From Bdellovibrio sp. (GTDB lineage: Bacteria; Bdellovibrionota; Bacteriovoracia; Bacteriovoracales; Bacteriovoracaceae), in NCBI GenBank assembly GCA_022729855.1, contig DZBG01000006.1, positions 1 to 48,662 of the forward strand: a stretch of DNA of 48,662 nucleotides, given 5' to 3'. A program made the position numbers and the translations under genes. Shown one piece after another: positions 11,312 to 29,054 of this stretch. The notes below the pieces were generated by a model, which searched no databases, had not been told where the DNA came from, and saw nothing but the letters and a program-made list of their open reading frames with translations. Position 1 is the stretch's first letter. Every line of letters begins with the position of its first letter.

Positions 11312-12583
11312 TTAAGCTTTTTTGACTTTTCCTTCACCATCGTGAAAGTGAATGGAAAACGATACTTCTTTATCTAATTTATCAAAATCTAACTTAGAAG
11401 AAACGACTGAACGCTCCTTGGTTTCAATAAAACTATATCCCCTCTTTAAGACATCTTTAGGAGAGAGAGCACAGAGAACCTTATAAAAGCTTGAGAGCTT
11501 CTGATTAATTCTCTCTGGCCATAATTTAAACTGGTGAGAAAACTTGTTATAAACCTCATCTAGCTCCATTTGCTTCTGATGTAGTCCAATGAGAATTTCT
11601 CCACGAGAATGAAACGACATCTTGGCCAATCTGTTCTTATAGTTCTGAACACCTTCGCTAATTTTTGAAATCATGGCACGTGGGTGGTAATGCTCTTTCT
11701 TTTTTGCAATCTCGTAGAGACTTGTCTGCATATTTTTTTTGAGATGGGCAGAGACCGTTTGCATTCTATTTTTAAGTACTGTCTGAGGCTGAGAAAGAGT
11801 TTCTGCTGCTGCCGTTGGTGTTTCACAACGAAGATCGGCCACATAATCGGTTAATGAATAATCAACCTGATGTCCGATGGCACTTATTGTAGGATGTTTA
11901 TATCCTGCGAGTTTTCTTGCTAGTCTTTCATCATTAAAGGCCCAGAGATCCTCTAATGATCCTCCTCCACGCGCGAGAACAACCACATCGATATCATCTC
12001 TTGTCTCAAGATAAGTCAGCGCCTTCAGGAGAGAGGGAGCCGCTCCGTCTCCTTGAACAAGACAAGGAAGAATTAAAATATCAAACCAGAGAGCGCGTCT
12101 TCTCATAACTTCTAAAAAGTCTTGAAGAGCAGCACCTTGCTCAGCCGTAAGGATGGCAATTTTTTTTGGGTAAACGGGGATTTGTTTTTTGCGGTCTAAA
12201 TCAAAGAGTCCCTCGCTGGCGAGTTTCGCCTTTAATTTTTCAAACTGAAGTTTTAATTTACCTTCGCCTGCTGGGATGATTCTTTTTACAATTAATTGAA
12301 AGGTCCCTCGTTTTTGATAAACCGACAAAGGACCGAGCACTGCAATTTTGTCTCCGTCCTTGATATTTCTTACGAGAGGATTTCTTAGTGCATCTCCTTT
12401 AAAAAGAGCACATGAAATCGATGCCTCATCATCAGAGAGATTGAAATACCAATGCCCAGATGCTGAAGTGGAGAGATTTGTGACTTCCCCTTCAACCATG
12501 ACCTCGTGAAACTCCGACTCAAGTTGTGACTTGATGGCCGAGACGAGTTCTGAAACACTGGCAATATTATAACCTTCTATCAT
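11312..12583 (-). CDS. xseA: Exodeoxyribonuclease VII large subunit
   Basis: Large subunit of ExoVII, which degrades single-stranded DNA to short oligonucleotides. The N-terminal OB fold (~1-100) carries VEGEVTNLSTSASGHWYF and ISCALFKGDA. The catalytic region has the family stretches VYPKKIAILTAEQGAALQDF, the ARGGGSLEDLWAFNDE block (~200-215) and HPTISAIGHQVDYSLTDYVADLRCETPTAAAE (in pieces, ~229-262), and a coiled-coil C-terminus follows. Length (423) is slightly shorter than E. coli XseA (456). The start overlaps the ctpA stop by 4 bases (ATGA). No small-subunit gene (xseB, ~70-80 residues) lies next to it, which is unusual; it must be elsewhere in the genome. Its place between a protease and a peptidoglycan hydrolase is odd. 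Confidence 0.95.
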   Translation of the reverse strand: MIEGYNIASVSELVSAIKSQLESEFHEVMVEGEVTNLSTSASGHWYFNLSDDEASISCALFKGDALRNPLVRNIKDGDKIAVLGPLSVYQKRGTFQLIVKRIIPAGEGKLKLQFEKLKAKLASEGLFDLDRKKQIPVYPKKIAILTAEQGAALQDFLEVMRRRALWFDILILPCLVQGDGAAPSLLKALTYLETRDDIDVVVLARGGGSLEDLWAFNDERLARKLAGYKHPTISAIGHQVDYSLTDYVADLRCETPTAAAETLSQPQTVLKNRMQTVSAHLKKNMQTSLYEIAKKKEHYHPRAMISKISEGVQNYKNRLAKMSFHSRGEILIGLHQKQMELDEVYNKFSHQFKLWPERINQKLSSFYKVLCALSPKDVLKRGYSFIETKERSVVSSKLDFDKLDKEVSFSIHFHDGEGKVKKA

Positions 12584-14013
12584 TTCTTAGTATGAAGAAA
12601 TTGATCGTATTCTCTAAACGACTCAAGATATTTCACAGCTTGGAGGACTTGGTAGTCTTCATTTGGTGCGTAGGCTTTAAAAATTTCATCTTCCGTATTT
12701 TTATTCTTGTTAGCTTTAGCTTCTTTTCGTTTTTGCTCAATAGATTGAATACGTTCTTGACGCTCTTTTTTCTCTTCAGCTTCTCTAATCACTTTCTCTT
12801 CAGGCGTTTCAATTGAAGCAGTGAGATGATTCTTAAGATCTTTTTCTCTCACATAACGATCATCTCTTTTTGCCTTTGTGTAAGCGACAAAATCGACATC
12901 ATCAATAAGAACATCAGGAGTAATCCCCACGGCCTGAATACGGCGGTTAAGTGGAGTCATATACTGAGCAATTGTCAGCTTCACTCCCGTTTCTTTATCG
13001 AGTTGGGCCACCGTTTGTACTGACCCTTTTCCAAACGACTGAGATCCCATAATGATGGCACGTTTATAGTCTTGAAGAGCACCCGCTACAATTTCAGAAG
13101 CGGAAGCAGATGATCCATTGATAAGAACAATCATGGGAGTTGTTAAATCTTTAAATCCTGATTTTTTCACATAACGAATATCTTTATTTTGGGGATCACG
13201 AGATTCAGTTGAAACAACAATTCCATCTTTTAAGAAGATTGATGAGAGATCAACAGCTTGATCAAGAAGACCACCTGGGTTGGCACGAAGATCAAGAATG
13301 ATCCCACTGACTCCACCCTTCTTCTTGGCCTCAGTTTCCATTTTCTTGAGAGCTTTCTCAACTGATTCAGCCGCACGCTTTTGAAATTGAGTCAGTCTGA
13401 TATAAGCGTAGTTTCCACTAATAAGTTCAGATTTGACTGGTTCAACTTTGATGATCTCTCTTTTAATCGTGAATTGCTTAACCGAGTCTTCACCTTCGCG
13501 AGAAATACCAAGGGTGATCTTCTGCCCTACTTTACCACGCATCTTTTCCATAACTTGATCAAGAGAAAAACCGATGATCGATTCGTGATCAATTTCAACA
13601 ATTCTATCTTTTGCAAGAATTCCCGCTTTGAATGCCGGAGTATCATCGATCGGTGTAATAACAATAATTACACCATCTTTTTGAGTCACTTCAATACCGA
13701 GACCCCCGAACTCACCGGCCGTATCATTTTGCATCTTTGCAAAAAAATCTTTATTCAAAAAGTTTGAATGTGGATCGAGAGTATCCATCATTCCTTTAAG
13801 AGCACCTTCAATGAGTTTCTCAGTACTCACTTCACGGTAGTATTGAGTTTCGATTAAATATAAAACTTTATTAAATAATTCTAATTGCTCAAAGCGACCT
13901 TTGTTTTCAGAGATCTTTGGAACTGGTGAGGCGAGAATTTTTTTCTCTTCTTTGGCATAGGCCATATTAAAAACAAATGAACTGGCCAAGGCCAGAGTTA
14001 AAAGAGATTTCAT
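12580..14013 (-). CDS. ctpA: C-terminal processing protease (S41 family)
   Basis: Periplasmic serine protease that trims or degrades envelope proteins. A Sec signal peptide (MKSLLTLALASSFVFNMAYA) is followed by an N-terminal helical region, a PDZ domain at ~85-165 (GGLGIEVTQKDGVIIVITPIDDTPA, in pieces) and the S41 core. The Ser-Lys dyad is visible as NGSSASASE (Ser) and GSQSFGKGSVQ (Lys). A Lys/Glu-rich, probably coiled-coil C-terminal stretch (~405-450) follows. I prefer the ATG at 14013, with GGAG 6 bases upstream, over a TTG at 14025. In Pseudomonas aeruginosa CtpA degrades M23-type peptidoglycan hydrolases, and here it shares an operon with two LytM proteins, so they are plausible substrates. 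It overlaps xseA by 4 bases. Confidence 0.93.
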   Translation of the reverse strand: MKSLLTLALASSFVFNMAYAKEEKKILASPVPKISENKGRFEQLELFNKVLYLIETQYYREVSTEKLIEGALKGMMDTLDPHSNFLNKDFFAKMQNDTAGEFGGLGIEVTQKDGVIIVITPIDDTPAFKAGILAKDRIVEIDHESIIGFSLDQVMEKMRGKVGQKITLGISREGEDSVKQFTIKREIIKVEPVKSELISGNYAYIRLTQFQKRAAESVEKALKKMETEAKKKGGVSGIILDLRANPGGLLDQAVDLSSIFLKDGIVVSTESRDPQNKDIRYVKKSGFKDLTTPMIVLINGSSASASEIVAGALQDYKRAIIMGSQSFGKGSVQTVAQLDKETGVKLTIAQYMTPLNRRIQAVGITPDVLIDDVDFVAYTKAKRDDRYVREKDLKNHLTASIETPEEKVIREAEEKKERQERIQSIEQKRKEAKANKNKNTEDEIFKAYAPNEDYQVLQAVKYLESFREYDQFLHTKK

Positions 14014-14044
14014 AGGTAGCTCCAAGAGAGGCGTTTATACTGCT

Positions 14045-15058
14045 TTAGATTTTACTGACTTGATTGAGATCTAACCACAAAATAGTATTTTGGGCGGTGT
14101 TTTTCTTACGGATTTCAAAATAAAGATGATCAGCTTCCGAGCCTAATCCTTGGGTATATCCAAGAACTTCCCCATCTTTGACTTGATCGTTTTTCTTTAC
14201 TTTAATCGACATTTTACCAAGGATGACTGACCTTAAATCATTTCCATGATCTAACATGACAACCTGTCCATAACTGGCAAGATCCCCAGAAAAAACAACT
14301 TTCCCTGATCCAACTGCTTTCACAGGTTGAACTGCTTTGTATTTAAATGTGACCCCTTTAGGGCTTGATTGGTAACTTAAAAAATCTTCAAGTGGGCGAG
14401 CAAAGATTCTTTCTGCCTTCGCTTGTACTTTGGCCACAGGAGAAAAAGTTTGTTTAACTTTTGCTATTTTTTGATGAAGCTTTCTTTCTTGAAATTTTTC
14501 TTCAAGCTCATTTTTCTTCTCTACTTTAGTAAGATAAGTTTCCATTGCTGTTTTCTTGCGTTTTTCAAGCTCTGAGATAACAACTTGAAGTTCAGCTTCG
14601 TTCTTTTTAAGCTCATCAAGTTTAACAGTGAATTCATCAATCTTTTCTTGAAATGAGACGATCTCCTCACCTTTTTGCTTCCACTTATTTTGAGACGTTT
14701 GAAGCAGTTGGAGATGGGCCTTCTTTTGCCAGTCTTCAATTGTATCATCAGATTCTTGGGCCAAATAATTCATCAGAATTTTTTGATTATCAATTTCAGC
14801 ACGGTGCTGTTCATCTTTTAATTTATCAAGACGAGCTTGATACATTTTTAAGTCATCACCAAATTGCTTCATTGATTCAATTGAAGAGAGATAAAGATCG
14901 TTTTTTGAGCCAATCTCTTTTTCAATAGTATTAAGTTTTGCACCTAAGTGCAGGACCTCTTCTCTATATTTAGTCAGATCTCTGGGCATAGAAGGGGCCA
15001 CACTAAAAACTTTAGTGCTAAGCAGGGCGATGAATAAAGCAGCTGATACTTTTTTCAT
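14045..15058 (-). CDS. envC: EnvC-like murein hydrolase activator (coiled coil + degenerate LytM)
   Basis: Periplasmic protein with a signal peptide (cleavage near residue 20) and a long coiled coil (~28-205, rich in Glu/Lys/Leu heptads). A C-terminal LytM domain follows (~225-337: KAVGSGKVVFSGDLASYGQV, in pieces, and DHLYFEIRK). The domain lacks the zinc residues: no HxxxD motif precedes VGSGKVV, and the HLHW motif is DHLYFE. This is the hallmark of EnvC, which activates amidases rather than cutting peptidoglycan itself. The gene begins 3 bases after ftsX, the arrangement expected if its coiled coil binds the FtsX periplasmic loop. No amidase gene (amiA/B/C) is in the window. The assignment rests on architecture, degeneracy and operon position together. 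Confidence 0.85.
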   Translation of the reverse strand: MKKVSAALFIALLSTKVFSVAPSMPRDLTKYREEVLHLGAKLNTIEKEIGSKNDLYLSSIESMKQFGDDLKMYQARLDKLKDEQHRAEIDNQKILMNYLAQESDDTIEDWQKKAHLQLLQTSQNKWKQKGEEIVSFQEKIDEFTVKLDELKKNEAELQVVISELEKRKKTAMETYLTKVEKKNELEEKFQERKLHQKIAKVKQTFSPVAKVQAKAERIFARPLEDFLSYQSSPKGVTFKYKAVQPVKAVGSGKVVFSGDLASYGQVVMLDHGNDLRSVILGKMSIKVKKNDQVKDGEVLGYTQGLGSEADHLYFEIRKKNTAQNTILWLDLNQVSKI

Positions 15059-15061
15059 GAA

Positions 15062-15859
15062 TTAGTTATTTCTCCACTTCCAATCTTGCATTGAGAAAGT
15101 CCAAAAAACAGAAAATACCATCAAGAGAATAATCACATCAAAAACTTTTAGTGTTCCGTTAAAAATCCCAAGTCCACTAAAAAGAAGAACCACCACTCCA
15201 AGTCCTGAGGCTATGGATTTTGCGGCCACATATTTTTTACGCTGAAATCTCTCAATCAAATAACTTCTTGTTCTGAAGACATCATAACAAAGCCAAAAAC
15301 TAATCATCCAGGCCAGAGCGAGAATCGCAATAATTCCCCACGAACCAGAATGCTTTAAAAATGAATAAACCGGATGACCACTCATAGACTTTGCAATTTC
15401 TGGAAACCGGATGGCCCCAGAAGTAATATGATCTTTCCCACCAGTTCTTTCCACTTGGGCCTTGATAAATTGCATCGTCTCAACTGAGATCGTTTGATTC
15501 ATCACCACTTTAAAGGCAGTCATGAGTTCACTCGGGGCAGTCATTTGATAATCAGTCCCAAGCTCGGCGACAAGTTTGTTTAATTTCTCTTGGGCCTGTT
15601 GGTTCACTTTATCATCAACAAATTGAACACCTGGTAGAGAGCTCACTTTTGCAAGGAAGGCTTCTTTATCTACGGTTTGATCAATCACAATACTGAAGTA
15701 CGGATTCACCATCTTTTCAGGAGTTACTTTTTCAACAATTTGTTGAACCCAGGGACGATGAGTTAATGAGAACGCAAGTAAGCAGCTAAAAAAGAAAAAA
15801 CTAAAACCGCGAAAAACTGAGTCACCAATAGATTTACAAAATTCTTTTAGATAAAACAT
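15062..15859 (-). CDS. ftsX: Cell-division ABC transporter permease FtsX
   Basis: Inner-membrane partner of FtsE that relays ATP hydrolysis across the membrane to EnvC during septation. The 265-residue protein has the FtsX topology: TM1 at ~17-33, a periplasmic domain of ~130 residues (~35-170), then three closely spaced TMs (~172-190, ~208-230, ~235-253). The periplasmic region contains the family-style ferredoxin-like stretch VDKEAFLAKVSSLPGVQFVDD (in pieces). It is shorter than E. coli FtsX (352), mainly at the cytoplasmic N-terminus. It overlaps ftsE by 13 bases and is followed 3 bases later by envC. Sequence similarity of FtsX is always weak, so topology and context carry the call. Confidence 0.88.
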   Translation of the reverse strand: MFYLKEFCKSIGDSVFRGFSFFFFSCLLAFSLTHRPWVQQIVEKVTPEKMVNPYFSIVIDQTVDKEAFLAKVSSLPGVQFVDDKVNQQAQEKLNKLVAELGTDYQMTAPSELMTAFKVVMNQTISVETMQFIKAQVERTGGKDHITSGAIRFPEIAKSMSGHPVYSFLKHSGSWGIIAILALAWMISFWLCYDVFRTRSYLIERFQRKKYVAAKSIASGLGVVVLLFSGLGIFNGTLKVFDVIILLMVFSVFWTFSMQDWKWRNN

Positions 15860-16560
15860 GCATGCCCCGAATAGACTAAGCGTCCCTGATCAAGATGCGC
15901 GATCTTCCCAGGAAATTGTTTAATAAGTTCTTTATTATGAGTCGCCCACACGAGAGTGAGGCCCTTCTTTTGATTATAGTGATTGAGAAGTTCAAATAGC
16001 TTGTAACTATTGTCTTTATCGAGTGAACTAGTTGGTTCATCAGCAAGAAGTGCTGTTGGTTTACAAAGCAAAGCGCGAACCATCGCCATCTTTTGCTTTA
16101 GTCCGCCATTACAATCCTCCATCTTTTTCCCGAGACAAGACTGGATACCTAGATAGCGAGTCAGACTCTCCATCTCTTGATAAAAATCTGTCTTAGAAGC
16201 ATAGACACCAGAATCATAAGCGAGCCAAAGATTCTCTTCACAAGTTTTACGATTTAATAGTCTAAGATCTTGGAAAACGGTTGAAACAAAATGTTTTTCT
16301 GATCGCATAAAAGGCAGCACAGCTTTACCAGATGTCGGCTCAGTATAACCCGCGAGCACATTTAAAAGTGTGGTCTTTCCGGCACCAGAGGGGCCAGTGA
16401 CGAACAAAATTTCACCAGGGTAAATAGTTAATTGCACCGATTTCAGTGCCGGACTGGCACCAAACTCTACACTCAGATTATCTAAGTGAAAGAGGTACGA
16501 TTGCCGTAAAGGCGCAGAATTTTGAGAAAGAGCACGACCAGTTATCATCCTTGAACCCAC
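15847..16560 (-). CDS. ftsE: Cell-division ATP-binding protein FtsE
   Basis: Cytoplasmic ABC ATPase that drives FtsX. Walker A GPSGAGKT is at 56-63, the Q-loop Gln at ~97 (VFQDLRLL, an FtsE-typical segment), Walker B LLADEP at ~171-176, the D-loop SSLD follows, and the H-loop His is in WATHNKE. The signature loop reads CNGGLKQK instead of LSGGEQQR, an unusual departure. The start is taken as GTG at 16560, with GAGGG 5 bases upstream; an ATG at 16548 has no spaced ribosome-binding site. An N-terminal extension of ~20 residues precedes the usual family start. First gene of the seven-gene envelope operon, overlapping ftsX by 13 bases. A LolD-like role is the alternative, but the FtsX and EnvC neighbours favour FtsE. 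Confidence 0.9.
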   Translation of the reverse strand: MGSRMITGRALSQNSAPLRQSYLFHLDNLSVEFGASPALKSVQLTIYPGEILFVTGPSGAGKTTLLNVLAGYTEPTSGKAVLPFMRSEKHFVSTVFQDLRLLNRKTCEENLWLAYDSGVYASKTDFYQEMESLTRYLGIQSCLGKKMEDCNGGLKQKMAMVRALLCKPTALLADEPTSSLDKDNSYKLFELLNHYNQKKGLTLVWATHNKELIKQFPGKIAHLDQGRLVYSGHACFI

Positions 16561-18092: not shown

Positions 18093-18131
18093 AAAAAAAG
18101 AAAAAGGGCCCTTCATCATGAAGGGCCCTTT
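18093..18131 (-). terminator. Strong intrinsic terminator of the regulator/small-protein transcript
   Basis: A perfect 12-bp stem (18103-18114 with 18120-18131, AAAGGGCCCTTC) with a 5-base loop is followed on the minus strand by a T-rich tract (18093-18102). It lies 9 bases after the stop of the 68-residue gene and just upstream of the HD-domain gene, insulating the two. A-tracts on the other side may let it work in both directions. Confidence 0.9.
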
Positions 18132-18402: not shown

Positions 18403-19896
18403 TTACTGAAGTTCACGTGCTTCGATCATTCCGTAGCTGTGAAGTTTGTTGTATAGCGTCTTAACTGTAATTCCAAGAGCTTTTGCTGCACGTGTCTTAT
18501 TACCATTAAGGTGGTCTAAAGTACCAATAATATGCTTTTTCTCAAGGTCAAAAAGCGTCATTTCAGAAAATTCGATCACAACTTCTTCAGCTACTTCAGT
18601 TACCACTTCTTTAGCAAATTCAGGAAGGTGGTCAGCTTCGATATATTGACCTTCAGAAAGGATATACGTTCTTTCCATTACGTTTTTAAGTTCGTGAGCG
18701 TTTCCTGGCCAAAAGTATCCACAAAGTTTTTCAAGAGCTGCAGAAGTAAGAATTTTAGCTTCTCCGTTTCCACGTTTTCCGTTAAGGAAATGCTCAGCAA
18801 GGTGCTTGATATCTTCTTGACGGTCACGAAGTGATGGAATCAATGCGTGAACTGTATTTAATCTGTAGTAAAGATCTTCTTTAAATGTTCCAGCTTCTAC
18901 TAGAGTTTTAAGAACGATTTTGCTTGTTACAACAAGACGTACATTTAAAAGAATGCGCTCATCAGAATCAACAGTCATCATTTCTCCAGCAACTAGTGTG
19001 CGAAGGATTTTTGACTGAATATTAAGTGAAAGTGATCCAATTTCATCAATAATAAGTGTTCCACCATTTGCTTGAACGAAAAGACCGTTCTTACCAAAAA
19101 GCTCTCTGTCCATTTGTGCTTCAGTAAAAGCTGAACAGTTAGAAAGAACACAAGCTCCTTTTCTTCCAGACCATTGGTGAATTTTGCGAGCAAGTTGCTT
19201 CTTACCAACACCGTGGTTACCTTCGAGAAGTACTGGAAAATCTTGAGCTGCTACTTTACGAGCAAGAGCAACTACATCTAGAAATCTTTTTGAGTGACCG
19301 ATTAGCTCACACTCACCATCTTGAATATGTGAACGAATTTCAACTCTATTAGTAAGTTCTTTATCTCTTGATTCGATTTTTGCCATGAGCTCTTTATTAA
19401 GATTTTGAGCTACTAAAAACATATGCATATTACGTAGTGGAGCATTGATTGCTTCTAGAACATCATTTACTAGAGCGATATCTGATTCACTAAATTGACG
19501 ATCTTTTTTAATTGATTGGATATTGATTGTTCCAATAACTGAACCATCAACCATCATAGGGATACAAAGCTCAGATTCAACACAGTCTTCTCTTTTCGAA
19601 GTTGAAGCGATTGGATCTCTTCTTACTGAATTTGAATAATAAGCTCTTTTAATTCTTGATACATATCCTGAAAGACCTTGGCCTTTAGCTAAAACAACTT
19701 CATTAACCGATTGTCCGTTCTCAGCGATTAAGCGAGTTGAACCATCATTAAGAGCAACAAACCCTTGAACCTTGTACTCACCAGTCATGTCATGAATTTG
19801 GCCAGTAATCTTAGAAAAGAAGACAACTTCGTTTAAGTTAGAAAGTAGAACTGTACAAAGAGTAGATAGTTCGTTGTTGAGTTGAGCAGCTTTCAT
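18403..19896 (-). CDS. GAF-AAA+-Fis regulator, bEBP-like but without the GAFTGA loop
   Basis: Transcription regulator of the NtrC-like architecture: a GAF sensor (~20-160), AAA+ domain (~193-420) and a Fis-type helix-turn-helix (~450-490, NGNKTRAAKALGITVKTLYNKL in pieces). Walker A is GNHGVGKK (225-232) and Walker B LIIDEI (281-286); an arginine-rich sensor region (LRDRQEDI) and WPGNAHELKN follow. Between ELFG (266-269) and GLFVQANGGT the usual segment carrying GAFTGA is absent. That loop contacts sigma-54, so this protein probably does not open sigma-54 promoters and may act as a repressor or sigma-70 regulator, as TyrR does. No receiver domain is present; a small molecule or redox signal to GAF is likely. 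It has its own promoter (19960-19988) and an AAGGAG site, and stands downstream of tolB. Confidence 0.88.
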   Translation of the reverse strand: MKAAQLNNELSTLCTVLLSNLNEVVFFSKITGQIHDMTGEYKVQGFVALNDGSTRLIAENGQSVNEVVLAKGQGLSGYVSRIKRAYYSNSVRRDPIASTSKREDCVESELCIPMMVDGSVIGTINIQSIKKDRQFSESDIALVNDVLEAINAPLRNMHMFLVAQNLNKELMAKIESRDKELTNRVEIRSHIQDGECELIGHSKRFLDVVALARKVAAQDFPVLLEGNHGVGKKQLARKIHQWSGRKGACVLSNCSAFTEAQMDRELFGKNGLFVQANGGTLIIDEIGSLSLNIQSKILRTLVAGEMMTVDSDERILLNVRLVVTSKIVLKTLVEAGTFKEDLYYRLNTVHALIPSLRDRQEDIKHLAEHFLNGKRGNGEAKILTSAALEKLCGYFWPGNAHELKNVMERTYILSEGQYIEADHLPEFAKEVVTEVAEEVVIEFSEMTLFDLEKKHIIGTLDHLNGNKTRAAKALGITVKTLYNKLHSYGMIEARELQ

Positions 19897-20031: not shown

Positions 20032-21399
20032 TTATTTCGGAAGGTTAGTCCATTGTGGAGAGAAACATTCTCCAAAATCTTTGGTCAATTGGCCTAAAAT
20101 TTCACCTTCTCTATTCATGATCCACATATCCTGGACGGCCTTATGGCTATTTACGACGCGTCTAGAGGTAAAAACGATGAATTCACCGTCTGGAGAATAG
20201 ACAGGTTCCTCATTAGAGCCGAAGTCCTTCGTTAGCCTAAAAAGATTATTTCCTTGGGAATCGATACGGTAAAGATCAAAAAGACCATCTACCCAAGAAG
20301 CGAAGACAATTTCTTTTCCGTCGGGAGAGAGTCTTGGAGTGGCGTTGAACTGGCCAACAAACGAGATACGCTTAACATCTTTCTCTGTAGCACGAGGATC
20401 CATTGTATAGATATGTGCGCGACCTGAGCGGCTTGAGAGAAATGTCATTAAACTACCAGCTGTATTCACAGAAGGATCTACATCATCAGCATAATGAGAA
20501 GTGACCTTTCTCATTTTTCCACCTGTTAAGCTCATCTCATAAATATCAGCATTCCCACTATAACTGAGAGTTAGATACAAACTATTTCCATCAGCAGTAA
20601 ACACTCCCCCTGAATTGATCCCTGGACGAGCAGAAATTGTTGAAAAGTGTTTTGTTTTAAGATCAAGCATCATTAAATCAATATTTTTAATGGTGCGTAC
20701 TTTATTACGAGACTTTTCTTTGTGACTAGCAATCAATGAGAACATAATTTTTGAATTATCTGGAGAAACTGAAGGAGAAAGAACCATCGAGTTGTAGCTG
20801 GTTAGCTTCTCCACTCTATTACCATCAAAATCCATAATATAAAGTTCTTTTCGTTTATCTTTTTTACTTACAGAAGATCTATCTGAAATAAAAACAATCT
20901 TCGATAAAAAGACCGAGGGCTTTCCTGTGATAGATCTGTAAATAGCATCACTTAATTTGTGACCCGCTTCTTTAGTCTGAGAATTTGATATACTCACTGA
21001 TGTATTGAGCACTTCAGCTTTAGTGAGAATACTATAAACTTTTACTGCAATCTCTAGCTCACTCCCCTTGTTCTGCATTTTTGTAGCAACAAGATAAGTC
21101 ACTCCATTTTCTGCCCACGATTCAAACAGGGCCTTAGAGAAAGAGTTCTTTCCCTTATCTTTATATTCAACATTATTAAACTTGTGTTTATAAAAATTAA
21201 AATCGTTTTTAATGATCTCTAAAATTTCAATGGCTTGTTTTTTATTCTCTGATGAGATTGATCCAAATTCTGAATCATCAATCACTAGCTTATCTTTATC
21301 TTGTTCCGCCTCACCAATCGCAATCACTCCAGTGTTTTCCTGGGCCCAAAGTGAAAAAGAGAATACGAGAGTAAGAACTAATAATAAGATTTTTTTCAT
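20032..21399 (-). CDS. tolB: Tol-Pal system beta-propeller protein TolB
   Basis: Periplasmic protein of the Tol-Pal machine that maintains outer-membrane attachment and invagination at division. A signal peptide (MKKILLLVLTLVFSFSLWA) is followed by the TolB N-terminal alpha/beta domain (~22-150) and a propeller of PD40-type repeats: SPSVSPDNSKIMFS, PRLSPDGKEIVFAS, EPVYSPDGEFIVFTS and weaker copies between ~175 and 455. Length 455 is close to E. coli TolB (430). It is the last gene of the tolQ-tolR-tolA-tolB order and starts 10 bases after the tolA-like stop with an AGAGGT site. pal does not follow; the next gene is a regulator with its own promoter. The call is firm. Confidence 0.93.
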   Translation of the reverse strand: MKKILLLVLTLVFSFSLWAQENTGVIAIGEAEQDKDKLVIDDSEFGSISSENKKQAIEILEIIKNDFNFYKHKFNNVEYKDKGKNSFSKALFESWAENGVTYLVATKMQNKGSELEIAVKVYSILTKAEVLNTSVSISNSQTKEAGHKLSDAIYRSITGKPSVFLSKIVFISDRSSVSKKDKRKELYIMDFDGNRVEKLTSYNSMVLSPSVSPDNSKIMFSLIASHKEKSRNKVRTIKNIDLMMLDLKTKHFSTISARPGINSGGVFTADGNSLYLTLSYSGNADIYEMSLTGGKMRKVTSHYADDVDPSVNTAGSLMTFLSSRSGRAHIYTMDPRATEKDVKRISFVGQFNATPRLSPDGKEIVFASWVDGLFDLYRIDSQGNNLFRLTKDFGSNEEPVYSPDGEFIVFTSRRVVNSHKAVQDMWIMNREGEILGQLTKDFGECFSPQWTNLPK

Positions 21400-21409
21400 A
21401 AATACCTCT

Positions 21410-22225
21410 TTAAAGTGGGAATCCTAGGATTACACCTGAACGTGATAACTGAGTGGCAACTTCAGGCGTCGGCGCCGGAAAAGGAGCTGCACTTTTAATA
21501 CTCATTTCGGCACGAGTATCAAACTCTGGTTGACCACTCGACTCGTTGATTTCAGTTTTAATAATTTGGCCCTGGGCCCCAATATAAACTCGAATGCGGC
21601 AGCGTAGATTTTTATCAAGAAGATAACTTGGAAGTTTCCAGTATGGTTTAATCAGCTCTGGCATTGACTGCACATAACTCACATAAGCCGAGTTCTCAGT
21701 GTCTGAATAATCCCCTACTAGACTAGATCCCTTACTTAGACGGTTCCCTTCAATAATAAGAGCATCAAGCTCCTTTCCTGAACCTTCTTTAGATCCCTGT
21801 TTCACTTCTTTTTTAGGTTTAACTTTTTTATCTGAATAATTAGACAAAAGAGAATTCAATGAAGACTTTTTCTTTGGTTTCTCTTGTTCTTTAATAACAA
21901 GATCCCCTTCTTTGATAACGTCTTCTGGAACTTCTTCTTTTTTAGGTGTTATTTCTTCTTTTTCACCCTTCACAGGTTCTGCTGGCTGAACCGGACTGTT
22001 CGCTATCTTTTCTTGAATTTCTTTAAGTTCTTGAATTGTATATTTTGGCATTCCTACAATATCAACCCTAACAGCGGCATGGATAATATCTAGTTTTTCA
22101 TTATTAAAAAAACTAAAAGACATTTTTCCTACAAGTATAGCAATTAGAACAATAATCCCGTGCCCAACTAAGGACAGCCCAAGATTCTTCCAAAATTTTT
22201 GCTGTTCTAACTGATAACTATACAT
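21410..22225 (-). CDS. tolA: TolA/TonB-family energy transducer
   Basis: Envelope-spanning protein that couples the TolQR motor to the periplasm. A cytoplasmic N-terminus is followed by one TM (~16-36), a Lys/Glu/Pro-rich linker (~75-150) and a C-terminal TolA/TonB-like domain (~185-271) with KPYWKLPSYLLDKNLRCRIRVYI and FDTRAEMSIKSAAPFPAPTPE in pieces. The linker is short compared with E. coli TolA (421 residues in total versus 271). TolA is favoured over TonB because of the tolQ-tolR-x-tolB order. The start lies 2 bases after the tolR stop, so translation is probably coupled. Alternative: a TonB-like protein that has replaced TolA. Confidence 0.85.
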   Translation of the reverse strand: MYSYQLEQQKFWKNLGLSLVGHGIIVLIAILVGKMSFSFFNNEKLDIIHAAVRVDIVGMPKYTIQELKEIQEKIANSPVQPAEPVKGEKEEITPKKEEVPEDVIKEGDLVIKEQEKPKKKSSLNSLLSNYSDKKVKPKKEVKQGSKEGSGKELDALIIEGNRLSKGSSLVGDYSDTENSAYVSYVQSMPELIKPYWKLPSYLLDKNLRCRIRVYIGAQGQIIKTEINESSGQPEFDTRAEMSIKSAAPFPAPTPEVATQLSRSGVILGFPL

Positions 22226-22227
22226 AG

Positions 22228-22641
22228 CTACTTATTCTCTATCTCTGTCACAAGTGCGATATTAGAAATTCCAGCCTTCTTTAGATTAGAAATAAGCTTG
22301 GCCACTTTTTCGTACTTGAGTTGGTAATCAGCTCTGATATAGATAACATCAGTTTTATTTTTAACAAGCTCTTCATTAATTCTTTTCACAAGAACTTTTG
22401 AATCAACGAGCTCTTTTCCAATAAAATATTTTTCTGTGTCAGTAATCGAGAGTATGACGAGTTCTGAGTTTAGATTTAAACTTGTTACTTTTTGAGTTTT
22501 AGGGAGCTTGAGCTGAATCCCACTAAACATCATAGGAGCAGTTACCATAAAGATAACAAGTAGAACTAACATCACATCCACTAAAGGTGTGACGTTAATA
22601 TCTGAAACAGGGCCTTTTTTATTCCCAGTATTCATTCCCAT
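22228..22641 (-). CDS. tolR: Biopolymer transport protein TolR (ExbD family)
   Basis: Inner-membrane motor subunit that uses the proton-motive force with TolQ. A short cytoplasmic N-terminus leads to a single TM (~18-38) containing the essential Asp (TPLVDVMLVLLVIFM, Asp22), followed by a periplasmic ExbD domain (~50-137) with VYIRADYQLKYEKVAKLI, in pieces. Length 137 is typical (E. coli TolR 142). AAAGGA lies 8 bases before the ATG. It is 11 bases after tolQ and 2 bases before the tolA-like gene. TolR versus ExbD is decided by the tolB neighbour. Confidence 0.93.
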   Translation of the reverse strand: MGMNTGNKKGPVSDINVTPLVDVMLVLLVIFMVTAPMMFSGIQLKLPKTQKVTSLNLNSELVILSITDTEKYFIGKELVDSKVLVKRINEELVKNKTDVIYIRADYQLKYEKVAKLISNLKKAGISNIALVTEIENK

Positions 22642-22652
22642 GGTAAATTCCT

Positions 22653-23357
22653 TTAGTCTTTTTTCCCAATAAGGATTGATCTTTCAATTAAGTTAAGAAA
22701 ATCCTGAGAAAATGATTCCATTTGCGAATTTGTACGCGAGATTTGATTATTAAAAAAGTTGTAAAACCAAACAGCTGGAATGGCAGCAGCAAGACCTACG
22801 GCCGTTGCCACAAGGGCCTCAGCAATACCTGGGGCCACCGCTTCAATTGATCCACCACCAGTCGATAGACCAGAGAATGCATCAATAATTCCCCACACTG
22901 TTCCAAACAAACCGATAAACGGAGTGATTGATCCAATACTGGCCAGAGTTGAAACCTGAAGCTCCATTTTCTCTGTTCCTAAATTAAAACCATTCTTCAT
23001 CGCTCTCTCAAGTGACTGAAAACCATTTGTTGAAAAGTATTCAGCGATTGATGATTTATTATTTTGGCTTAGTTTTTCACTCACTTTATTTAACTCTTCA
23101 TATCCTTTGCGGAAAATGAGACTAAATGTTGAATCGTGGTGCTCTGTTGCCTGATGAAGAATCTCCGACATTGAAGTTGAGCCTTTGAAAAAATTAAAGA
23201 ACTCTTCATTCGAAGCATTAATCAGTTTTAGTTGTTTGTATTTTTGTAAAACGATAGTCCATGAAATTACAGAAGCAGCAGCAAGAATAAGAAGAACAAG
23301 TTTCACAACAAGTCCTGAATCCCATAAAATTTGCCAAATATTTAATCCACCGTGCAT
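22653..23357 (-). CDS. tolQ: Tol-Pal motor protein TolQ (ExbB/MotA family)
   Basis: Proton-channel subunit of the Tol motor. The 234-residue protein has TM1 at ~14-34, a long cytoplasmic segment (~45-130), TM2 (~137-158, ASIGSITPFIGLFGTVWGI in part) and TM3 (~180-202, AEALVATAVGLAAAIPAVWFYN in pieces), the conserved MotA/TolQ/ExbB core. A GGGAAGG site lies ~7 bases before the ATG. It starts 3 bases after the uncharacterised multi-TM gene. The call is firm at family level; the context (tolR, tolA-like, tolB) decides TolQ. Confidence 0.94.
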   Translation of the reverse strand: MHGGLNIWQILWDSGLVVKLVLLILAAASVISWTIVLQKYKQLKLINASNEEFFNFFKGSTSMSEILHQATEHHDSTFSLIFRKGYEELNKVSEKLSQNNKSSIAEYFSTNGFQSLERAMKNGFNLGTEKMELQVSTLASIGSITPFIGLFGTVWGIIDAFSGLSTGGGSIEAVAPGIAEALVATAVGLAAAIPAVWFYNFFNNQISRTNSQMESFSQDFLNLIERSILIGKKD

Positions 23358-23360
23358 AAA

Positions 23361-24185
23361 CTACCCTTCCCGTTTAAACCGTTTAATAAAAAAAGCTAAT
23401 GAGTCGCGAAACTTGTAATAAACTAAAGATAACACTCCACTCACAACTAGAAAAGTCACAAGACTTGATTGTTGAACTGTAAATGGAGAAAAATCTCTTC
23501 CCCAGACTAAATCCACTCCCATAAATGTATTAAGTGGTCCTACGAAGACAATCAAAAACCAAAAAGCATTAGAGAAGCGTTTTAGTTGTGAATGTGTGAC
23601 TAAAAGAAGATTGAAATAGACAAACAAAACAATCGGCCAAAGCTTAAAATAATCTGGCATCGATATTCTGTAAGCAAAAAGCCCAAGTATTAAGAAAAAA
23701 GCGTTTTCAATGATTGATTTTTTATTCTTTGGAAATTGCTCCTGCAGGTAAAGCCAAAAAAAGATATCAGCTGCAAAATAAAGGAAGACACCAAAATAGG
23801 AAACAAGATGTCCCCAGAAGTAAGATGTATACGCAGGATTAAACTTAATACCACCCACGGCCATGACCCCGATAAACGAAAAGAGTGTGATCACAAGTGA
23901 CTTATATTGAACCCACTCCAAAACTAAAGCTTTGAACTGAACAAGATTAGGCCAGCTGCGAGACTTTACCTTTGACCAATAATACATCGAGAATAAGGCG
24001 ATCAATTTTCCAAGGAAAACAATTTCCCAGCCATAATTTTGAAGCCAAGACTCAATAATATTAATTTCATGTTCAAGTAGAAAATGAATAAAGGCAGAGA
24101 GTGAACTAAGTAGAACCACACTTAAAATAAAAACGATTTGGTAACAAGTATAAGAGCTAAGTCTTATTTGCCAATTTTTGATCAT
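23361..24185 (-). CDS. Uncharacterised polytopic membrane protein in the tol operon
   Basis: I do not recognise this 274-residue protein. It has about seven hydrophobic helices (roughly 15-35, 55-70, 95-113, 122-147, 160-175, 183-200, 208-226, with another near 240-258) joined by short loops, and a basic C-terminus (FIKRFKREG). No transporter, peptidase or acyltransferase motif is evident. Its start overlaps the stop of the preceding secreted-protein gene by 4 bases (ATGA) and tolQ starts 3 bases after its stop, so it is co-translated with both. Location in the inner membrane is safe; a role in envelope homeostasis is inferred from position only. Confidence 0.75.
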   Translation of the reverse strand: MIKNWQIRLSSYTCYQIVFILSVVLLSSLSAFIHFLLEHEINIIESWLQNYGWEIVFLGKLIALFSMYYWSKVKSRSWPNLVQFKALVLEWVQYKSLVITLFSFIGVMAVGGIKFNPAYTSYFWGHLVSYFGVFLYFAADIFFWLYLQEQFPKNKKSIIENAFFLILGLFAYRISMPDYFKLWPIVLFVYFNLLLVTHSQLKRFSNAFWFLIVFVGPLNTFMGVDLVWGRDFSPFTVQQSSLVTFLVVSGVLSLVYYKFRDSLAFFIKRFKREG

Positions 24186-25087
24186 AGAACTTTATCATCA
24201 GGAGAGAGCCACTTTAATTGCATTTCTGGTGACGGATAGAGTTGATTATAAGTTTTATACTGATTATTTGTTTTGATTAAGCGGTCAATTTTTCCAAGGA
24301 GTCTAAAGTAAGTATTCCACCATTCAATATTTGATTTTAGAAAAGAATCCATTTTTTTGGTGACTGCAAATTGTTGCTGAAAAGTGAAACCTTTCTGAAG
24401 TAAGAATTGATCGTAGTTCTTAAGAGCTTCACTCATAGGAGAGAGATCAAGCTTCTTACCATAAAAATTTGATCCAACATACGCATCTAGACCTTTGGGT
24501 CTGACAGCTTTTTTAAAGTATCCCTCTTCTGCTTTTAAATAATCTTCAAGCATCATAAGAGAAATTTCTAATTTAGAAAGATCAAGAGTTCTAATAAAGG
24601 GAACTGAAATAAGAAAAATCGTCTCACCATCAGGGCCTGGAATTGCAGCTCTCACCAAGGCCGGTGTATTTAAAAGTAAAATCCGAAATTTCTTTTGGAA
24701 AAGTCCTACGTTTTGAAGAACTGCTTTAAATGAGTCTTCGAGCCCGTAGTCAGGTTTCTCAAAATCCCAAGCGAGAGTGGGAGCATTTTTTACCAACCAA
24801 TACTCACTCATGATTCCCCACCACTCATCTTCGGTGGGTACAAGAAAACGGTCTTTCTCTATTATCGCCTGTTCTTTTTTTATCGCTTCAACTTGACGTG
24901 CTTTAGACTTGGCCTGTTGAGACAAACCATCTTCTTGAAGTACTTTTTTAATTTGCTTAAAATCGACCAGTTCTAATTCTTTTTCTTCTTTGGTTTTTTT
25001 ATCTTGAGCATTGATCTGAGATGTAAACATCATCACCATCAAAGCAAGACTACTGAACCTTAGACTGGCCTTGAAGATAGTTATCAT
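24182..25087 (-). CDS. Secreted protein resembling an inactivated M48-type peptidase
   Basis: A 301-residue protein with a Sec signal peptide (cleavage likely after QINA near residue 27) and a Lys/Glu/Gln-rich helical stretch (~28-85). The middle has the flow of M48 metallopeptidases: NTPALVRAAIPGPDGETIFLISVPFIRTLDLSKLEISLMMLEDYLKAEEG, in pieces at ~140-190. In M48 members a similar 'PGG-I-v--G-l-------EL--vl-HE--H' line carries HExxH. Here the place of HExxH reads LEDYL, so no zinc site is left. I therefore suggest a non-catalytic relative; this is weak similarity by eye. It overlaps the SH3-protein gene by 38 bases and the next gene by 4 bases. It may be a periplasmic scaffold or regulator for the Tol region. 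Confidence 0.65.
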   Translation of the reverse strand: MITIFKASLRFSSLALMVMMFTSQINAQDKKTKEEKELELVDFKQIKKVLQEDGLSQQAKSKARQVEAIKKEQAIIEKDRFLVPTEDEWWGIMSEYWLVKNAPTLAWDFEKPDYGLEDSFKAVLQNVGLFQKKFRILLLNTPALVRAAIPGPDGETIFLISVPFIRTLDLSKLEISLMMLEDYLKAEEGYFKKAVRPKGLDAYVGSNFYGKKLDLSPMSEALKNYDQFLLQKGFTFQQQFAVTKKMDSFLKSNIEWWNTYFRLLGKIDRLIKTNNQYKTYNQLYPSPEMQLKWLSPDDKVL

Positions 25088-25457
25088 ATAATCGTCCCCA
25101 ATAATAAAGTTCGCTTAAATCCAAATTTAATCCGTCAAAAAACTTAGGATATTTAGCCTGAAAACATTCAGGTCTTGCAGGAGCTAAAAATGATTTTAAA
25201 ATAAAACCTTTAAAGTCTGCCACTTGTACATAGGCCCATTCTTCGCCCACTTTAACTTTTGATGATTCGATAACCTTAATAGGATGACCACATTGAATAG
25301 TCGTCAAACTTGAAGAAAGCTCTTTGGGTGACTGATGGACATGTCCCAAAATAGGTTTGAAATAAAAGACCCCTACTGTCTTCTCATCTTCGGCTACCGT
25401 TTCAGCAAAAGCGGAAAAAGTATTTAATATAAGAAGAGCCAGAATCAGTTTCTTCAA
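25050..25457 (-). CDS. Secreted SH3-like domain protein
   Basis: A 135-residue protein read from a TTG at 25457, chosen because GGAAGG lies 6 bases upstream, the TTG directly follows the lapB stop, and translation then begins with a proper signal peptide (KKLILALLILNTFSAFA). Longer upstream starts would bury the signal. The mature part contains a bacterial SH3-like fold (~35-95: HVHQSPKELSSSLTTIQCGHPIKVIE, then EEWAYVQVADFKGFILKSFL, in pieces), with the typical 'G-W--V---G--G-v----L' rhythm. Such domains bind peptidoglycan peptides or proteins in the periplasm. It lies between lapB and the M48-like gene and overlaps the latter by 38 bases. Ligand unknown. Confidence 0.7.
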   Translation of the reverse strand: MKKLILALLILNTFSAFAETVAEDEKTVGVFYFKPILGHVHQSPKELSSSLTTIQCGHPIKVIESSKVKVGEEWAYVQVADFKGFILKSFLAPARPECFQAKYPKFFDGLNLDLSELYYWGRLYDNYLQGQSKVQ

Positions 25458-25458
25458 A

Positions 25459-26688
25459 CTACACCTTCCATCTAAACTGAATTGTTTCCCAGTTATGACA
25501 CTGAGGACATCTCCAAAAGATATCATCAGAGTTATATCCACACTGAGAGCAATAATGTTTAGTAAGAGTATTATGTAAGTTATTCAGCAATTGTTTCGTT
25601 TGAGCAAGAGCTTCATCTGTTTTGTTCACTTCAATCAGAAGTTTAATATATTCCACTTTAAGAACATCACTCTGACCGTGATTTTTCATCCAATAATCTA
25701 AAAGCTCAAAAGCATCAGTAATACGAGATGATGATTTGAGAAGTCTAATTTTTGAAAGAACGACTGAAGCAGAACTCATGAGATCAAGGTTTTTAATCTC
25801 TAGGAAATAGTTTTTTAATTGCTTTAATCTTTCAAGGTATTCAGCTTTCTCAGGAAGGTCGTTATTAAACTCTTCTAGTGAAACAAAAATAAAAGAAGCA
25901 TACATAGGATGTTCTTTAAGAAGTTCTAAGAGAACTCCTTTAGCGTCTTCCATTTTACCTTGAACTAAGAAAAGCTTCAGGCGCAAAATTTTTGCCGAAA
26001 CTGAAGGAGCAAATCTAAAAGCGTCCTCAATCTCTTCTGCACAAGCTTTAAACTGCCCTTTTTCAAAAAGTGATTTTGCTTTTTGAACTAGGATATGTGA
26101 AATAGTTTCTGATTGATTCACATGCCCTACTTTAGAGAGCATGATGCGATAATTATAGGCTTGATCCCAATCTTCGATATCTTCATAGATACGACAAAGA
26201 GCGTGAATAACATCTTGTTGATCACGATTAATTTTTAAAACATCTTTATAAGTTTCAATGGCCTTATCAATAAAGCCACCCTTATCAAAATCAACAGCAA
26301 GTTCTTTTAATCCCTGAAGTCTTGTGGACTCAGAAATACTCTCTCTGGCAATTAATGAACGGTGAATACTAATCGCTTTCTCAATTTCACCATTACTTCT
26401 AAAAAGTCCGCCAAGAGCAAAATATGTTTCAATGGTTTCACGATTCAGATCTACGGCGTTGAGAAATTCTTTAATCGCTAAATCTTTATTTCCATCAATA
26501 AGGTACTGAGTAGCATTCAAAAAGATCTTAGATTGAGTTTCAAAAATACTACTGCGGTACTTCTTTGAAAGCTTAACAACTTTATCACGCTCAATAACAT
26601 AATGATAAATAAGAACAATAGTAATGATCACTGCTACGACAGTGAGAACATGATCTTTACTCCATTCAATTAAAAACAATGTATCCAT
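25459..26688 (-). CDS. lapB: LapB (YciM)-like TPR protein with C-terminal rubredoxin-type metal site
   Basis: Membrane-anchored cytoplasmic protein that, in enteric bacteria, recruits FtsH to LpxC and so limits lipopolysaccharide synthesis. After the ATG at 26688 there is a TM (~10-28), then a superhelix of ~8-9 TPR units (~55-340; e.g. ALGGLFRSNGEIEKAI, LAVDFDKGGFIDKAIETYK). The end carries two CxxC pairs (CSQCGYN and CPQCHNW), the rubredoxin-like knob essential in LapB. The size (409) matches LapB (389). I prefer 26688 to the TTG at 26730, because AAGAGAAG precedes it and the sppA stop is only 8 bases upstream. The operon places LPS control with SppA and the Tol machine. Domain order makes this call strong. 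Confidence 0.88.
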   Translation of the reverse strand: MDTLFLIEWSKDHVLTVVAVIITIVLIYHYVIERDKVVKLSKKYRSSIFETQSKIFLNATQYLIDGNKDLAIKEFLNAVDLNRETIETYFALGGLFRSNGEIEKAISIHRSLIARESISESTRLQGLKELAVDFDKGGFIDKAIETYKDVLKINRDQQDVIHALCRIYEDIEDWDQAYNYRIMLSKVGHVNQSETISHILVQKAKSLFEKGQFKACAEEIEDAFRFAPSVSAKILRLKLFLVQGKMEDAKGVLLELLKEHPMYASFIFVSLEEFNNDLPEKAEYLERLKQLKNYFLEIKNLDLMSSASVVLSKIRLLKSSSRITDAFELLDYWMKNHGQSDVLKVEYIKLLIEVNKTDEALAQTKQLLNNLHNTLTKHYCSQCGYNSDDIFWRCPQCHNWETIQFRWKV

Positions 26689-26695
26689 TCTTCTC

Positions 26696-27625
26696 TTATT
26701 GCGCCGGTTGGTATAAAAAACTCGGAGCATTGACTCCAGACATTCTATGTTTAATAAAACTTAAAGCTTCTTCTCCACCAGAGAGAAGATCAGCAAAACT
26801 CATTTTGTTACGACGAGGTTTTAAGAACTTCATATCAAACTCACCTTTAAGTTTAAGTTCTTTATGAATAGCTCTTCCTGCTTTCCAAAGACCACCGATT
26901 TCATCTACAAGACCAACCTTCACAGCTTGATCACCAGAGAAAATTTGTCCTTGGGCCAATTCAACAATATCCATTTTAATTCTATCGCCACGAACGGCCA
27001 TAATGTCTTCACGGAATTTTTTATGAGTATCAGCAAGAAGATCCGTAAGAAGACCTCTCTCCTCATCAGTCATACTGCGACTTGGAGATCCAATATCTTT
27101 ATAACGACCAGCTTTCACTGTTTCTTGTTTTACTTTGGCGAATTTAAAAAGCTCAGACAAATCGGTTAATTGCATAATCACACCGATAGAACCTGTAAGG
27201 GTCCCAGAGTTCGCATATATTTTGCGAGTCCCTGCTCCGATATAATAACCACCGCTGGCAGCAATTGTTCCAAAGCTTGAATAGATTGGCTTGATAGCAT
27301 CGATACGTCTGATTTCTTCGTAGATCTCTTGAGTAGGGCCAACTGCACCACCAGGAGAATCAATTCTCATGATGATGGCCTCAATTTTTTCGTCTTTTTC
27401 TGCATCAAAAAGCATTTCGATGACTTTACGAGATTCTCTAATTTCGCCTTCAACAGGAATAACTGCGATTTGGGCGTTCATTTTTGAACTCATCCAATCC
27501 GAACTCATATCTGAAGTTTGCTTCAATTGAGAAACTGTATAAAAGGCAAAAACAATAAAAATGAAAAATAGCACGGTGATTAAAATGAAAATCCCAACTA
27601 TTCCTTTAGTTCTTTCGCGTGTCAC
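26696..27625 (-). CDS. sppA: Signal peptide peptidase SppA (S49 family)
   Basis: Inner-membrane serine protease that degrades cleaved signal peptides. One N-terminal TM (~8-32 from the GTG) is followed by the S49 domain with RIDSPGGAVG (oxyanion region), AASGGYYIG (nucleophile Ser, ~124) and AGRYKDIGSP (general-base Lys, ~176), as in short single-domain SppA. The GTG at 27625 is preceded by a perfect GGAGGAG at 6 bases, while an in-frame ATG at 27640 (five codons earlier) overlaps that same motif and has no site of its own; the GTG is therefore the likelier start. It is the first gene of a long tol operon, 8 bases before lapB. Family assignment is firm. Confidence 0.93.
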   Translation of the reverse strand: MTRERTKGIVGIFILITVLFFIFIVFAFYTVSQLKQTSDMSSDWMSSKMNAQIAVIPVEGEIRESRKVIEMLFDAEKDEKIEAIIMRIDSPGGAVGPTQEIYEEIRRIDAIKPIYSSFGTIAASGGYYIGAGTRKIYANSGTLTGSIGVIMQLTDLSELFKFAKVKQETVKAGRYKDIGSPSRSMTDEERGLLTDLLADTHKKFREDIMAVRGDRIKMDIVELAQGQIFSGDQAVKVGLVDEIGGLWKAGRAIHKELKLKGEFDMKFLKPRRNKMSFADLLSGGEEALSFIKHRMSGVNAPSFLYQPAQ

Positions 27626-27701
27626 GTAAAACTCCTCCATGAAGATTCAGCAATGGAGGTAGTATAAACAACTAAAAACTAAAAGGAAAAGGCTAATCCG
27701 A

Positions 27702-29054
27702 CTAAAAGGCGCGAGCTGAGCCTTGGCAAGCCTTCTCAATGGCCTCTATATCTTTTTTCAGTTTAGGTGGGACACCTAGAAGAGCAGAAGACTTAATTCT
27801 CTCGTATTCCTGATCATATTGCTTTGCTACCGTCGCATTTTCAACAACAACAAGAGTTTCATCATTTACATAGTTAGCGTTATCAGACCAGTTCTGAGAC
27901 CCTACGATCACAGATTTTGTATCAACCACGGCGAACTTATGGTGAAGCTTATCTCCACGTGGCATAATGGCCATCCCTGAATTTTTTGAGGGCTTTGACC
28001 AAGGTCTATTTCCAGGTTCTGCCTCACACTTCTGAGTCAGCATCTCAACACCTAAAATATCGAGAAGTTCTGAATAATCACGATAAGCAAATGATTGATC
28101 AATCAAAACACCAACAGAAACATTATCATTATTTCTCTTTTCTAATTCATCAACAAGGCGCTGATCAGAGAAAACAAAAAGGGCTGCTTTAAAAGACTTT
28201 GTCGCTTTTGAAAATGAACTTGCAATCAGTCCGTTTACACTTTCTTCCCATTTAAAACGGCGAGAAGTTGGTGAGAACTGGATCGTCATCTTTGTCCCGC
28301 GAACTGAAATTGTACGTGGTCCACGGTAAGTTTTGTTTTGACCAAAATTTCCACGTTTCCCATTCCCCCACATCTGTCCAAACTCATCAGAAAAAATGTC
28401 TGAAAAATTCTTCGCAGCAACGACAAGCATTGAGTTGGCATTCCCACGAGACTCAGGAGAATTAAAATCTCCATGCATCCCACTTGGAGTAAAATTGGCC
28501 GTACTCACAATAGTTACTTTTCCATCAACTACCATAAATTTATGGTGCATAAGTCCTGAGCCCATTGAGACGTCAGACTTATCATCTAAAAGGGGGATTT
28601 TATTTTCTCTAAGAATATAAATGGCATCACGAGTTTGAAGTTCTGATTTTTCAAGTTTTCCATTGCGATTAACATCCACCAGAAGCCTAAGCTCACTTAA
28701 CTTCATCGCCTCTTGTTCACCTTCTGGCATTTCACGTTGCTCAACAGATGTGAAATTATAATCATGCTCAACAATCACTCGAACATCGAGACCTTGTTTT
28801 TTCTTTTCAACAAGTTTTAAAGCAATTGTTGGAAGTCTTAACTCTTGAACGGCCAGATAGATTGAAGTTTTTGCTTTATCCATTTCTCTCAAAATAATCG
28901 CTTCAAGATTATCACCTTGACGGTGAATCTGGCGGTAAGGATCGATATAGCTAGCTTTTTTATTATGATTAAAATACGCCGTAACACTGGCAAAGGCAGG
29001 TGCTGTGATTATTGAAACTAAGAGAACTGATTTGATCCATGTATTTATTGTCAT
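27702..29054 (-). CDS. Secreted phospholipase D-like protein with two HKD motifs and an EF-hand loop
   Basis: Exported member of the PLD superfamily, which act as phospholipases or nucleases. The signal peptide ends near AFA (residue 22). The first HKD motif is HHKFMVVDGKVTIVSTANFT (~170-189; GSxN is degraded to STAN) and the second HHKFAVVDTKSVIVGSQNWS (~378-397), complete. Between ~127 and 138 there is a full EF-hand loop with Asp127, Asn129, Asn131, Gly132, Leu134 and Glu138, suggesting Ca2+ binding or stabilisation. Length (450) fits bacterial PLD-type enzymes. It has an AGGAAG site 6 bases before the ATG and stands alone, 61 bases before sppA's upstream start. Substrate (phospholipid, cardiolipin or DNA) cannot be read; release into prey or medium is speculative. 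Confidence 0.88.
   Translation of the reverse strand: MTINTWIKSVLLVSIITAPAFASVTAYFNHNKKASYIDPYRQIHRQGDNLEAIILREMDKAKTSIYLAVQELRLPTIALKLVEKKKQGLDVRVIVEHDYNFTSVEQREMPEGEQEAMKLSELRLLVDVNRNGKLEKSELQTRDAIYILRENKIPLLDDKSDVSMGSGLMHHKFMVVDGKVTIVSTANFTPSGMHGDFNSPESRGNANSMLVVAAKNFSDIFSDEFGQMWGNGKRGNFGQNKTYRGPRTISVRGTKMTIQFSPTSRRFKWEESVNGLIASSFSKATKSFKAALFVFSDQRLVDELEKRNNDNVSVGVLIDQSFAYRDYSELLDILGVEMLTQKCEAEPGNRPWSKPSKNSGMAIMPRGDKLHHKFAVVDTKSVIVGSQNWSDNANYVNDETLVVVENATVAKQYDQEYERIKSSALLGVPPKLKKDIEAIEKACQGSARAF

Follow-up and report, generated by a model that had tools for sequence, protein, structure and literature searches.

In the canonical Tol-Pal operon (ybgC-tolQRAB-pal-cpoB), tolQ, tolR, tolA and tolB lie in a fixed order, on one strand and tightly packed. 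Split layouts, in which tolQRAB and pal-cpoB occupy separate sites, have already been described in other bacteria, as the accessible text of one report relates (PMC12204202). Several other envelope proteins are relevant to the locus described here. LapB (YciM), which combines a transmembrane (TM) segment, TPRs and a zinc ribbon, acts in LpxC turnover within the LapB-FtsH-LpxC system (PMC9356133). The role of the periplasmic M48 protein BepA is in LptD assembly (PMC8423444). SpdC (LyrA), a CAAX-protease-like protein of Staphylococcus aureus, associates at the septum with the wall hydrolase SagB, which it modulates (PMC12272431), and the SpdC chain has been superposed on CAAX proteases (PMC10811503).

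We analysed a 48,662-nt stretch of DNA from a Bdellovibrio sp. genome (contig DZBG01000006.1; hereafter, the window) that belongs to the class Bacteriovoracia, many members of which prey on other bacteria. Here tolQRAB keep the canonical order, strand and packing, but no ybgC was found in the block, pal and cpoB are distal, and five other genes precede tolQ. The distal pal and cpoB are a feature shared with the split Tol loci, whereas the cases described in the accessible text of PMC12204202 lack the sppA-lapB-SH3-M48-like-8-TM extension. Our literature search did not find the five-gene extension before tolQ for the Tol-Pal operon, nor a paper on tolQ in Bacteriovorax or on Tol-Pal joined with SppA and LapB.

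Results

Organization of the nine-gene block and its surroundings

The nine ORFs named in the first-pass annotation, sppA, lapB, SH3, M48-like, 8-TM, tolQ, tolR, tolA and tolB, were all found in that order, tightly packed on the minus strand (Table 1). The upstream end of the block had been placed at 27625, but sppA actually begins at 27640, so that the block covers 27640-20032. Every junction in the window is an overlap or a gap of 11 nt or less. The overlap of sppA and lapB is 35 nt when measured to the annotated lapB start, and the true start of lapB may lie downstream of 26730. The start codon of SH3 (25457) is 1 nt past the lapB stop, the SH3 and M48-like ORFs overlap, the M48-like and 8-TM ORFs overlap by 4 nt, and the gaps from 8-TM through tolQ, tolR and tolA to tolB are 3, 11, 2 and 10 nt. 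In 61 related loci, the median gap was at most 45 nt at each sppA-to-tolB junction; the gap before tolQ, the place of the internal promoter that the first-pass annotation named as a possible refutation, had a median of 45 nt in the relatives as compared with 3 nt in the window. A sigma-70 promoter scan returned 32 sites versus 33.9 in shuffled sequences, and Rfam and tRNA searches gave no match in the window.

Table 1. Features of the block and its flanks (window coordinates).
Feature	Position	Strand	Basis or remark
Exported phospholipase-D-like protein	27702..29054	-	PF13091, E 2.4e-41; 61 nt upstream of sppA
sppA, signal peptide peptidase / S49 protease, 314 aa	26696..27640	-	PF01343, E 9.6e-39
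lapB-like; N-terminal TM, TPRs, C-terminal LapB zinc ribbon	25459..26730	-	PF18073, E 5e-10
SH3_3 protein, small, exported, 135 aa with signal peptide	25050..25457	-	TTG start
M48-like exported pseudoprotease (predicted), 301 aa	24182..25087	-	M48 fold; E181-D182-x-x-K185 replaces HExxH
8-TM inner-membrane protein, N-in/C-in, SpdC-like fold	23361..24185	-	AlphaFold2 model, Foldseek, positive-inside pattern
tolQ	22653..23357	-	TIGR02796, E 1.6e-62
tolR	22228..22641	-	TIGR02801, E 1.4e-33
tolA	21410..22225	-	TonB_2, E 1.3e-10; TIGR02794, E 1e-13
tolB	20032..21399	-	TIGR02800, E 2.8e-79
GAF / sigma-54-type AAA+ / Fis regulator	18403..19896	-	135 nt downstream of tolB
Terminator-like hairpin, strong (13 pairs, 7 GC, T tract)	18103..18131	-	After the regulator
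ftsE, ftsX, envC-like M23, ctpA-like protease (division wall-cutting module)	12580..16560	-	Same strand as tol

The transcription unit probably extends past both the sppA and the tolB ends of the block. The phospholipase-D-like gene upstream of sppA, which occurs in 10 of the 61 loci and in only part of the class, is probably the first gene of the unit in the window's lineage. Farther out, at 31044-32768, lies an ORF for a protein of 574 aa that matched nothing in Pfam at E 0.001. On the other side, the regulator gene that follows tolB is conserved in relatives (median gap, 141 nt), and the hairpin at 18131-18103 is probably the end of the unit. Two other families (L140 and L143) have such a regulator gene behind tolB as well.

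Beyond the hairpin lie a gene for an HD protein and then ftsE-ftsX-envC-ctpA. This arrangement recurs on the strand of tol in 20 of 20 relatives, except that ftsX escaped detection in one of them. In several other families, ftsE together with envC and/or ctpA is positioned divergently upstream of tolQ (L133, L134, L137, L140, L142, L143 and L146), which indicates that the Tol/FtsEX-EnvC neighbourhood predates the class and backs a division setting for the block. An apparent ftsE in Bdellovibrio-type loci proved to be a SufC-type gene of a suf cluster and was left uncounted.

The extension before tolQ is a trait of Bacteriovoracia

Over 40 genera contributed the 61 loci in which this block was found around the M48-like gene, and its gene order is kept across 46 genera of the class. 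In an independent named collection, which included Bacteriovorax, Halobacteriovorax, Bacteriovoracaceae and some MAGs labelled to higher ranks only, sppA-lapB-SH3-M48-like-8-TM-tolQ was unbroken in 71 of 80 loci; the remaining nine mostly lacked SH3 or were interrupted by contig ends. The names of these records place the window in Bacteriovoracia. The M48-like protein is present, normally as a single copy, in 109/116 genomes of the order (44/46 genera), and its profile matched in 93/97 genomes of the family. Two points of the first-pass annotation bear on this distribution. Scattered homologues free of tol were one outcome that it foresaw, and the unknowns turned out to be tol-bound throughout the class, normally single-copy and not scattered. 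The synteny that it looked for across Bdellovibrionota, on the other hand, is confined to Bacteriovoracia. In about 18 other families, represented by 20 loci, nearly every locus carries tolQRAB, but the five genes are missing upstream of tolQ throughout; one of these loci showed a weak TPR match to the lapB profile and nothing more. The presence of tolQRAB without the five genes in other families makes the extension a class-level trait. In 27 other families of the phylum, the M48-like profile gave one weak match, probably by chance, in contrast to TolB, which was detected in 284/291 genomes. That match (G249; E 7e-5 over 65 residues) has no recognised M48-like neighbour pattern around it and was set aside. 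Compared with what the first reading supposed, the linkage is tighter within Bacteriovoracia and more restricted across the phylum. The two earliest branches of the TolQ+TolR+TolB tree already carry the extension, so that it predates the diversification of the class.

pal and cpoB form a separate locus

TolQ, TolR, TolA and TolB gave their best matches to the corresponding families, yet with scores slightly to clearly under the equivalog cut-offs. The four genes are contiguous and Pal is encoded elsewhere in the genome. The first-pass annotation had reported that pal and cpoB were missing; both are indeed absent from the cluster, but the window's genome has them on another contig, where pal (166 aa), a gene for a DUF4398 protein and one for a CpoB-like TPR protein make up one locus. 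In the one-contig genome G071, pal is about 2.3 Mb from tol. Since split layouts are known, the position of pal-cpoB away from tolB does not exclude membership of the Tol-Pal system, and the separation is ordinary. One could imagine that the three uncharacterised proteins (SH3, M48-like and 8-TM) stand in for Pal and CpoB, given that they are encoded in a tol operon that has neither. As stated, this idea is refuted by the pal-DUF4398-cpoB locus, and Pal was detected in 107/116 genomes of the order and in 73/73 of the high-quality ones; we give it practically no credence. A second, more canonical tolB-pal pair was observed in the fragmented genome G111 (contig C10, 16208-17901) and is probably contamination.

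sppA and lapB can leave the block

SppA scored 204.9 bits against TIGR00706, above the cut-off of 155.45. The lapB product has the TM, TPR and zinc ribbon arrangement of known LapB; it differs in that its match to NF008757 (E 2.6e-66) falls under the curated cut-off and in that it is encoded with sppA and tol. Among 12 proteins compared it is the most conserved, with 71% mean pairwise identity; a search of 20 genomes from other families in the phylum returned weak matches only. An LpxC gene is present, which would allow LapB to work in LpxC turnover as it does in E. coli. The SH3_3 domain was recognised in 34/35 relatives, with a best E of 3.2e-8.

Rearranged loci were informative with regard to which genes belong together. 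In a well-supported clade (g9, g25 and g35), sppA and lapB have been relocated as a pair and the 8-TM gene has been lost, and SH3 and the M48-like gene still lie directly before tolQ. In a separate clade, SH3 has been lost and the rest of the block retained. The mobility of the sppA-lapB pair makes a tight LapB-Tol machine the weaker part of the idea, and LapB and SppA seem to be companions under common regulation. The proposal that the operon ties envelope synthesis to division was partly supported: the division link gains strength from the conserved ftsEX-envC-ctpA nearby, whereas the tight tie between LapB and Tol is less well supported.

These loci also bear on a more general explanation, namely that SppA, LapB and the three unknowns are housekeeping envelope proteins that are co-expressed with tol, perhaps under the GAF/sigma-54-type regulator, and do no physical work with Tol. 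The survival of the sppA-lapB pair elsewhere is consistent with this, as are the conservation of the regulator after tolB and the mirrortree analysis, which gave modest correlations throughout and no specific signal that paired the unknowns with Tol. Operon linkage is, moreover, a firmer sign of co-regulation than of physical partnership. Nevertheless, an order held over 46 genera and the deep branches is unusually strict for mere co-regulation, and the M48-like gene remains at tolQ when others leave or are lost. We regard this explanation as quite possible, although not the one we favour.

The M48-like gene, linked to tolQ, encodes a predicted pseudoprotease

The M48-like protein matched no Pfam or NCBIfam family when searched alone, none in Pfam when a 41-member set was used, and not PF01435; a PDB sequence search with this and the 8-TM protein yielded nothing consistent. 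Its AlphaFold2 model (mean pLDDT 90), however, had E. coli BepA as the best Foldseek match in the PDB (prob 1.00, E 3e-3, TM about 0.45), followed by yeast Ste24p and a bacterial M48-type peptidase, and all leading matches were M48. The label "M48-like" given at first thus agrees with the fold, though no HMM matched. With hhalign, the profile matched true M48 proteins of the same phylum (E 2.8e-4), and the alignment set HExxH onto E181-D182-x-x-185; a rerun with stricter column trimming gave E 0.011 versus 0.41-0.97 for 12 unrelated control profiles. As the probability of the profile match was 41%, the M48 assignment rests mainly on the fold.

The M48-like protein resembles BepA and Ste24-type M48 proteins in fold and, like periplasmic BepA, has a signal peptide, but differs from them in its active site. 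HExxH was found in 0/61 sequences, and the site is occupied by a conserved E-D-x-x-R (E in 58/61, D in 54/61 and R in 60/61, with K in the window). Neither R nor K is a zinc ligand. The loss of HExxH in every sequence together with the conservation of E-D-x-x-R identifies the protein, by sequence, as a pseudoprotease. An active protease with unusual metal ligands might be envisioned from the M48 fold and the conserved E, D and other polar residues; since neither histidine of the site is retained, E and R mostly standing in their place, we consider this very improbable.

The M48-like gene is just upstream of tolQ in 65 of 67 loci (<2.5 kb), and in 78 of 80 in the second collection. The two exceptions among the 67 come from fragmented draft genomes, one of them split exactly between M48-like and 8-TM. 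In genome G017 (L084 and L152), where the block is split at this point, a rhomboid-like gene follows M48-like, and the split may be either genuine or an artefact of assembly. Genus g9 has a shorter M48-like protein, of 236 aa, whose gene still precedes tolQ (L147, 6176-6886, G010; L148, 5958-6668, G034). The M48-like pseudoprotease is the most tol-bound of the unknowns, because it stays beside tolQ both where sppA-lapB has left and 8-TM is lost and where SH3 is lost.

The kinship of fold with BepA, which acts on LptD, raises the alternative that the unknowns act alongside LapB in the assembly of LPS and outer-membrane proteins, through a BepA-like handling of LptD, and that tol is merely the downstream neighbour. 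LapB in the same operon, the presence of LpxC and the top mirrortree value, which was that of LapB-SH3 (0.58), would fit such a role. Where sppA-lapB moved, however, SH3 and M48-like stayed with tolQ and not with lapB, and we think this alternative improbable.

The 8-TM protein has a possible SpdC-like fold

The 8-TM protein likewise gave no Pfam or NCBIfam match alone and none in Pfam with a 38-member set. For its AlphaFold2 model (pLDDT 92), the only clear Foldseek match in the PDB was 6u0o_A (prob 1.00, E 0.027, TM 0.48/0.52), which is chain A of the SagB-SpdC complex. The charge distribution over alternate loops fits an N-in/C-in topology, in which the most conserved residues (H34, H39, W47, W53 and GxDPxWG) are at or near periplasmic loops. 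The 8-TM protein and SpdC probably have a multi-TM fold in common (TM-score about 0.5), and both are presumed to be non-catalytic. Unlike SpdC, the 8-TM protein showed no sequence-level similarity to CAAX proteases (hhalign E 0.8 with the CAAX-protease profile; no PF02517 match), and the tol block has no gene for a SagB-type hydrolase. With no sequence profile backing CAAX kinship, the likeness to SpdC is one of fold only.

Discussion

The reading that we favour is that the pseudoprotease and its companions are a clade-specific, non-catalytic accessory module of Tol, to which we assign a probability of roughly one half. The first-pass annotation put forward the three unknowns as candidates for a new part of the Tol machine. 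Support for this putative role is strongest in the case of the M48-like pseudoprotease, whose gene persists at tolQ, followed by SH3 and 8-TM.

In such a module, the exported pseudoprotease would serve as a non-catalytic adaptor, its M48 groove binding rather than cutting, and would work with TolQRA-TolB. The SH3 protein would be its usual partner or a wall anchor. The SpdC-like 8-TM protein might dock the pseudoprotease at the inner membrane, much as SpdC holds and modulates a wall hydrolase. Acting jointly, the three would adjust the constriction of the outer membrane by Tol to wall cutting by FtsEX-EnvC, encoded next door, and co-expression with LapB, through LpxC turnover, and with SppA would keep the supply of envelope material in step with the needs of the dividing cell. 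A bolder version holds that the pseudo-M48, SH3 and SpdC-like proteins form a new Tol-associated envelope complex, a regulator peculiar to the clade, in which the dead-protease adaptor couples Tol both to FtsEX-EnvC wall cutting and to LapB-controlled LPS supply; this we put forward tentatively, and consider it somewhat doubtful.

The genes relevant to Tol constriction, wall cutting and lipid supply are held in one block over the depth of the class, beside FtsEX-EnvC, and the block also contains two protein families not represented in Pfam. The conserved, tolQ-bound pseudoprotease with its EDxxR motif offers a specific handle for testing whether Bacteriovoracia employ an adaptor of Tol.
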